Both the position numbers and the translations under genes were made by a program. DNA of 64,000 nt from Alviniconcha marisindica (lineage: Eukaryota > Mollusca > Gastropoda > Provannidae), in contig JABMCL010000106.1 of assembly GCA_018857735.1 (NCBI GenBank), positions 905,001-969,000 of the forward strand. Reading direction: 5' to 3'. Below are positions 27,643 through 63,536 of the stretch, one piece after another. Below the pieces are notes generated by a model that worked only from the letters and a program-made list of their open reading frames with translations, made no database searches and was not told where the DNA came from. The first letter of the stretch is position 1; the number at the start of each line of letters is the position of its first letter.

Positions 27643-30600
27643 CGTGAGTGCGTGCATGTGTATGTGCATGTTCCCAGATATTTGTTTTGTTCTTTGCTTT
27701 GTAATGGGCTGTGCTCTACTTTGGACAAATAGCACACATGTCATGTATAAGAGTGCATTATTATTATTATCTTATTATCATCATCCTGTTTCAGTCACTG
27801 GTATTGGAGTGTCTGGATTACAAACATTACTCCAGCCCCAATAACTGAAACAGGATAAGCAATTTTCTTTTAGCATCATTTTTCTGTCTATTGCTTGAAA
27901 AGGGGGCTTACCATGAAAATCCGTGCACGTTTTGTGTGAGGAGAAAAAAAGAAGTGAAGAGTTTGTTTGGTTATTAAAGACTTTAGGAGACACTACATAA
28001 AAATGAAATGACACTGTAACAGAAGTAAGACAATTTCCGGAAATAACAAGCAAAGATAATTTGACAGTGTTTTCTTACTCCAGGAGAGTGAAGTCCCCTG
28101 AATGGAGGCGACAGCTAAGAAGTGCCAATCTGCGACAGTTTTAGAGCTTCAGGCATGGACCTATTATAATTTATACTAGACTACCAGCTGGGGGAACCTA
28201 CTATCCGATCTGCATGTTCCCCACGAACAGTGAGCGCTTGATCGGCATTTCTGATGCCTTTTCTGCCTTTGTTTATCGGTTATCCGTCATCTTGCCCACG
28301 TGCTCACTGTACCCCCAACAAAAGCGTGCCTACTCTGCGCTACACCCACAGGCCTGGACCTGTATATACAGGCCATGCCTGTAGGCACTTACCGAGTGCA
28401 GTCCCCTGGATTTCCGAAGATTGTCTGTTACCTGCTGGCAATGTACCAATTTTTAAATCTCACAAGTTATCCACAAAAACAAACAAAAAAATCAGCGAAG
28501 GAATAAACACCACAAAGTTTCGGTTGATACTGCATTTGCAACTCTGATAGTAAGCAAGCTCAACACACAGGGGAGTTAATTAGCACTCAAAAGCAGTCAC
28601 ACAAGCACAACAACAAAGACCTGAGTCACCTACAGTAACTCTCACCTGGCATGCATGTAAATACAAGGTGCATAAACTCTGATCTATAGGCAAGATTACG
28701 AGAGTATTCTGAGGACAGATCAGATCAGGTTCTTTAAACACTGTATTTTCCAATACGGAAAGCATCTAAGATGCTGGTCTTGATCATTTTCAACCAAACA
28801 AGCGTAATGTACCTCACCTGACCTCAACAGGGCCAGCAAAGTGCCTTAAGTTACCTTTTTCACTTTGGCTTGTTGTTGCTTCTGTTCCTTCTCCGCCTTT
28901 GCAGCCAGGCGCTCCAGCTGACGTGTAGTGAACTTGAGTTGAAACAATGTGTCTGAAAGAGTCATGCTTTAGTTGAAACAGTGTGTCTGAAAGTGTCATG
29001 CTTTAGTTGAAACAGTGTGTCCGAAAGAGTCATGCTTTAGTTGAAACAGTGTGTCTGAAAGTGTCATGCTTTAGTTGAAACAGTGTGTCTGAAAGAGTCA
29101 TGCTTTAGTTGAAACAGTGTGTCTGAAAGAGTCATGCTTTAGTTGAAACAGTGTGTCTGAAAGTGTCATGCTTTAGTTGAAACAGTGTGTCTGAAAGAGT
29201 CATGCTTTAGGTGAAACAGTGTGTCTGAAAGAGTCATGCTTTAGTTGAAACAGTGTGTCTGAAAGAGTCATGCTTTATTTGAAAGTGTGTCTGAAAGAGT
29301 CACGCTTTAGTTGAAACAGTGTGTCTGAAAGAGTCACGCTTTAGTTGAAACAGTGTGTCTGAAAGAGTCATGCTTTAGTTGAAACAGTGTGTCTGAAAGA
29401 GTCATGCTTTAGTTGAAACAGTGTGTCTGAAAGAGTCATGCTTTAGTTGAAACGTGTGTCTGAAAGAGTCATGCTTTAGTTGAAACAGTGTGTCTGAAAG
29501 AGTCATGCTTTAGTTGAAACAGTGTGTCTGAAAGAGTCATGCTTTAGTTGAAACAGTGTGTCTGAAAGAGTCATGCTTTAGTTGAAACAGTGTGTCTGAA
29601 AGAGTCATGCTTTAGTTGAAACAGTGTGTCTGAAAGAGTCATGCTTTAGTTGAAACAGTGTGTCTGAAAGAGTCATGCTTTAGTTGAAACAGTGTGTCGA
29701 AAAGTCTGCTTTAGTTGAAACAGTGTGTCTAAAGAGTTATGCTTTAGTTGAAACAGTGTGTCTGAAACTGTGAAAGAGTCATGCTTTAGCTGAAACAGTG
29801 TGTCTGAAAGAGTCATGCTTTAGTTGAAACAGTGTGTCTGAAAGTGTCAAACTTTAGTGGAAACGGTAGGCCTGAAATATCAAACTTTAGTGAAAACAGT
29901 GTCTTTGAAAGTGTCAAACGTAAGTGGAAACGGTGTCTTTGAAAGTGTCAAACTTAAGTGGAAACAGTGTCTTTGAAAGTGTCAAACTTAAGTGGAAACA
30001 GTGTCTTTGAAAGTGTCAAACTTAAGTGGAAACAATGTGTTTGGAAGTGGCAAATTTATGTTGAAGCAGTGTGTCTGAAAGTGTCAAACTTTAGCAGAAA
30101 GTGTTTCTGAAATCAAACTTTAGCAGAAATGGTGTCTTTGAAAGTGTCAAACTTCAGTGGAAACAGTGTCTTTGAAAGTGTCAACTTCTGTGGAAAGTGT
30201 GTCTGAAAGTGTCATGCTTTAGTTGAAACAGTGTGTGTGAAAGCGTCATGCTTTAGTTGAAACAGTGTGTCTGAAAGTATCAAACTTCAGCGGAAACAGT
30301 GTGTTTGAAAGTGCCAACTTCAGAAATTTGACATTTTCAGACACAGTGTTTCTACTGAAGTTTGATTTTCTACTGAAGTTTGACAATTTCTACACACACA
30401 CACATACACACCATGTGTCATACAGGTGTGTTTTTATTTTTATTTTTAGAACTGGTAAGACAAAATAACAGCCGGCATGTCTGAATGACTGCTGATTGTT
30501 TTCCAGGTATATGCTGATCTTAACCAGTAAAATGCTGGAAATTACCGGTTAATGTGAACCCTGGAGAAGCAATGGCCTAAACAAAGAAATAGGATCTGTG

Positions 30601-63536: not shown

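Follow-up and report, generated by a model that had tools for sequence, protein, structure and literature searches.

The locus raises the question of why tandem arrays in neighbouring genes should contain the very splice junctions that they adjoin. The initial annotation had described four such arrays in three genes and had offered two explanations, a mechanism that seeds tandem duplication at exon borders or a tolerance of arrays at these positions. We examined the arrays in the window, the whole 64 kb stretch of DNA analysed (contig C2484, positions 905001-969000, in an assembly of 817,622,342 bases, ~818 Mb), and compared their frequency at exon borders with chance in a larger sample of the same assembly.

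We derived gene models from the sequence and then compared them with proteins; all borders are homology predictions. We modelled two Piezo cap exons, CHMP1A and cyclin E (both on the minus strand), and four coding exons of BtpA; Pfam matches back the Piezo and BtpA models. The two Piezo exons (4065-4323 and 6603-6876, plus strand) look like alternative terminal exons, and both encode the Piezo cap domain. TRF found 57 merged arrays in the window, with units of 15-200 bp and a summed length of 16.6 kb. By eye, the stretches 42261-42650 and 48500-48950 look like related dispersed elements, perhaps SINEs; the first begins like a tRNA gene (ggggatagctcagtgg...).

The array at the acceptor of CHMP1A exon 2 lies at 28933-30311, at the border of intron 1 and exon 2 (minus strand; TRF, 34 bp x 40.6), and its unit contains ctctttcag plus 20 exon bases. 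Exon 2 (28855-28952, minus strand, first base 28952) encodes ..TLFQLKFTTRQLERL.. and was aligned to the CHMP1A of solved structure. Residues 1-52 of the model, from exons 1 and 2 and part of exon 3, align to this protein without gaps, and the join of exons 1 and 2 reads MDDTLFQLKFT, identical to its start; the unit thus holds the acceptor and 20 coding bases, and the true exon 2 starts in the last unit. The AG is kept in 27 of 37 decoy copies, and 22 copies score at least as high as the real site. The model of exon 3 (27125-27270, minus strand) contains a frameshift, of one base by our reading, possibly an assembly error.

Two junctions of BtpA, on the plus strand, carry arrays. The BtpA protein matches PF03437 and aligns through both of these junctions with nine chosen animal homologues; its nearest relatives are from Littorina saxatilis (82%) and from Babylonia areolata and Nucella lapillus (79% each). 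At the border of intron 1 and exon 2 (exon 60519-60601, from model and homologue alignment), the array at 60088-60532 (TRF, 32 bp x 13.9) repeats tttcag plus 14 exon bases, and related, more diverged arrays sharing the start sequence of exon 2 were found by TRF at 57250-59852. Over 57100-60540 we counted 57 decoy copies, 42 of them with AG and none scoring as high as the real site. The exon begins inside the nearly invariant ALPG/TP, a stretch that is repeated in the array. The second array (62152-62831; TRF, 37 bp x 18.4) lies in intron 3 at the donor of exon 3 (61987-62173, model and alignment), which ends in ..AMAVAKAA plus one base; its unit carries the junction GCTGCAG/gtgggt with 22 exon bases. 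The residues AMAVAKAA, also repeated in the array, are well but not completely conserved. GT is present in all 16 decoy copies found, and 8 score at least as high as the real donor.

In cyclin E, on the minus strand, the array at the acceptor of exon 5 (46255-46481; TRF, 42 bp x 5.4) includes only 4 exon bases; in our coding-exon numbering it lies in intron 4, which had been called intron 5. The cyclin frame is open throughout this array. AG is kept in three of four decoy copies, all three in frame and open, so that use of a decoy would add multiples of 14 residues. Exon 5 (46112-46258) and exon 4 (47381-47563) were both modelled and aligned to cyclin E1; within residues 1-251 of the model, the gap-free match covers 87-251, from exon 4 into exon 7. 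Exon 7 (44264-44851, minus strand) has 588 bases, with a 30 bp coding repeat at 44633-44720. A further array, with 32 exon bases, lies at the acceptor of exon 4 (47532-47698, minus strand; TRF, 77 bp x 2.2). TRF and the gene models thus bear out all four arrays of the initial annotation (units of 34, 32, 37 and 42 bp): each carries the adjacent splice site and exon bases in sense orientation, and the arrays span the predicted working junctions as described there. The list itself was incomplete, the 77 bp array having been missed.

Other arrays approach a junction without spanning it. Three end 10-20 bp from an acceptor (Piezo 3756-4051, Piezo 6348-6582 and CHMP1A 21366-21435), and one in cyclin E (41241-41904) begins about 36 bp from its acceptor; a search for this acceptor's own junction within the latter array found no copy with at most 10 mismatches in 26. 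The Piezo arrays and the cyclin E array at 41241-41904 were rejected as extra cases because they do not span borders.

Stretches from three arrays were searched against the assembly: CHMP1A 29000-29400 (401 bases), BtpA 60180-60500 at exon 2 and BtpA 62260-62660 at exon 3. Each matched its own locus only, on which grounds we rejected a dispersed satellite as the source, with the limit that very common words can escape such a search. The exon stretches repeated in the arrays of CHMP1A and BtpA code for conserved residues, identical to those of the solved CHMP1A in the first case and well conserved among the nine homologues in the second. For these two genes the exon is thus very likely the original, and the array derived from it.

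Five of the 39 borders in the window (four acceptors and one donor, from TRF and the models) lie inside the terminal unit of an array, or four of 39 when at least 8 exon bases are required. The control rate is 3.1% (2.8% at 8 exon bases), for an expectation of 1.2 (1.1) borders and p = 0.007 (0.02); the excess at p = 0.007 stems from a window selected for this very feature. A genome-wide comparison of arrays with shuffled positions had been proposed, and we ran it on 254.7 kb of the same assembly in 59 regions, with myosin, kinesin, CCT and kinase exons located via their Pfam families. The sample is non-random, being drawn from the best family matches and from CCT genes that are dense in exons. 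From 254 rows, 118 exon matches were chosen as expected in the fetched stretches; 113 were found there, and 22 more were added later. Borders, 267 in all, were called with a matrix derived from the gene models of the window (19 donors and 20 acceptors), and we kept the 226 that lay in the domain, at most 20 bp from the end of the match, and scored at least 0. A border was counted when the terminal unit included at least 4 exon bases and at least 15 intron bases.

By this count, 10 of the 226 borders were in a terminal unit, against 7.1 expected (p = 0.17) from the 3.13% of sample positions away from matched exons at which the same holds. Randomly shuffled arrays gave a mean of 6.8 (p = 0.15; ratio 1.41, 95% CI 0.68-2.60). 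The outcome was similar when the border filter was relaxed (11 of 240, with 7.5 expected, p = 0.14) or tightened (7 of 191, with 5.8 expected, p = 0.36). An echo test that uses no repeat finder, and whose border set retains a few likely miscalled borders such as a microsatellite donor at C1892, was run on 219 borders at three thresholds; it gave 17, 14 and 14 hits, with 12.3, 12.4 and 12.3 expected (p = 0.11, 0.36 and 0.35). No clear excess at borders was thus seen. Border-spanning arrays were present in the sampled myosin, CCT and kinase genes, and none was found in the sampled kinesin genes. Two CCT genes (C2473 and C2617) account for six of the ten hits, which makes the independence of the tests doubtful and the p-values rough. 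Four predicted borders of one of these genes (G000:C2473:605900-609300) carry spanning arrays, and in one exon both ends do; among the four, the donor at C2473:605931 scores weakly as a splice site.

A mechanism that seeds duplication at exon borders, mainly acceptors, through R-loops, spliceosome-linked breaks or slipping pyrimidine tracts, is therefore unlikely in our judgement: terminal-unit counts, shuffling and the echo test all lack a significant excess, and the claim of such a mechanism is not supported. Array cover also drops toward borders, from 18.8% at 800-1500 bp on the intron side to 8.6% within 50 bp. What speaks for seeding is the rate in the window, and a lead of acceptors in the sample (8 of 117, against 2 of 109 donors) of a kind that a preference for pyrimidine-rich sequence could give; in the echo test, 11 of 113 acceptors were hits when the threshold was loosest (p = 0.054), and 9 of 113 under each of the others (p = 0.19). 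An enrichment of up to 2.6-fold may be compatible with the limited sample, as may an acceptor effect of about twofold. Strong purging of arrays at borders was not seen.

The snail arrays are real, and they belong to a class that already has a name, although the initial annotation knew of none: such arrays were called "mirages" in amphioxus, where they are described in Adh3, the globins BflGb6 and BflGb9, troponin C and PGBD5 (PMC3087553; PMC3902484), with PMC3902484 listing those in Adh, troponin C and PGBD5. According to PMC3087553, mirages vary in length and are somatically unstable, are said to leave regular splicing undisturbed, and have been suggested as a way for new introns to arise. 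The likeness lies in units that span the exon-intron boundary at both acceptors and donors, with AG or GT in many copies. In the snail, units span the boundary at five borders of the window and ten of the sample; both 5' and 3' boundaries are involved (eight acceptors and two donors in the sample, one donor scoring poorly); and many, though not all, copies keep AG or GT, with the BtpA exon 3 array keeping GT in every copy found. Unlike the amphioxus mirages, the present arrays lie in a caenogastropod-like genome, reach about 40 copies and were compared with chance. It is for amphioxus that unstable length and normal splicing are reported; the snail arrays are known from the sequence of one assembly.

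In the open-licence literature, no mollusc mirages were found among the matches listed, which given that scope is a weak absence, and no mirages outside lancelets were among the matches listed either. An abalone intronic minisatellite is not described as spanning a border in the part of its source that was available. The minisatellite of the human IFI6 (6-16) gene reportedly provides multiple splice donors in the transcript (by the title of a 1995 paper in NAR, first author Turri). The copies at BtpA exon 3 likewise each carry a splice donor; the human repeat gives several donors in a transcript, going by that title, whereas the BtpA donors are predicted from sequence. Introns are also said to arise from tandem arrays, by Zhuo et al. 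in 2007. Those arrays resemble ours in having splice signals within genic tandem repeats; by the title of that paper they become introns, whereas the snail arrays grow inside an intron already standing.

The near-chance rate in the sample makes ordinary repeat growth, tolerated by splicing, likelier than a special mechanism, and the tolerance that had been offered as the alternative to seeding fits. We think it probable that the arrays are mirage-type minisatellites produced by ordinary growth, the first unit straddling a border, without border preference. The first tandem duplication would have straddled a predicted exon border by chance, slippage or unequal exchange probably making such duplications with no preference for exon borders, and the array probably grew in place toward the intron by ordinary expansion in a minisatellite-rich genome. 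The protein-coding role of the exon would hold one junction copy constant, while the other copies drift. The spliceosome would still choose the junction next to the exon, probably since exon definition couples that junction to the opposite exon end, and the copies would then be close to neutral. The 11 border arrays differ from the 147 others in having longer units (medians of 62 and 35, p = 0.027) and greater length (328 and 164 bp, p = 0.009); size-biased capture predicts both, and another cause might also give them.

Whether the ladders of decoys are functional, their copy number tuning the splicing rate or yielding isoforms, was considered with a scoring matrix for which 115 donors and 102 acceptors served as training set. 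AG or GT is retained in many decoys, some of which match the real site in score, also in a myosin intron of the genome sample (AG in all 37 copies, 11 scoring at least as high as the real site), and the human minisatellite, which by its title provides multiple donors, would be a precedent. Among 60 canonical decoys in the five window arrays, with those of BtpA exon 2 taken from the exon-near stretch 60080-60540 only, seven leave the frame open: four of 16 at BtpA exon 3 and all three canonical decoys at cyclin E exon 5, the last of which would suit such a function. However, the other 53 would shift the frame or run into a stop codon, the array rate at borders is near chance, and the trend toward a weaker nearest decoy, which would be a sign of selection, is not significant (mean score rank 0.36, p = 0.08, 10 arrays), neutral positions leaning slightly likewise (p = 0.27). 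As a measure of whether the edge unit escapes homogenisation, a feature of mirages, the mismatch rank of the unit nearest the exon was 0.56 (p = 0.27, 10 arrays). We regard a functional role for the ladders as improbable, even more so than seeding. An artefact of wrong exon borders, or of repeats collapsed or expanded in the assembly, of which the one-base frameshift in CHMP1A exon 3 may be a sign, is hardly credible given borders that agree with CHMP1A, cyclin E1 and animal BtpA proteins and similar arrays at other loci.

Mirages, present in several genes of this snail-like genome at a rate that could be compared with chance, seem to need no border-seeking mechanism, and their ladders are ready-made tests of how, out of as many as 37 close copies, the spliceosome settles on a single junction. 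A more speculative idea, which we hold tentatively and consider rather doubtful, is that repeated splice junctions are nearly neutral, being found at about 4% of borders, the same rate as at random intron positions, and that the in-frame ladder of cyclin E could lengthen the cyclin box in 14-residue steps. If near-neutrality were true, splice-site choice under dozens of equal decoys would be a natural experiment.

Within the sample, the myosin gene at G000:C2278:142786-148463 matches one profile stretch (~119-154) four times in close succession, a layout like that of mutually exclusive exons; an internal stop is reported for three of these matches.
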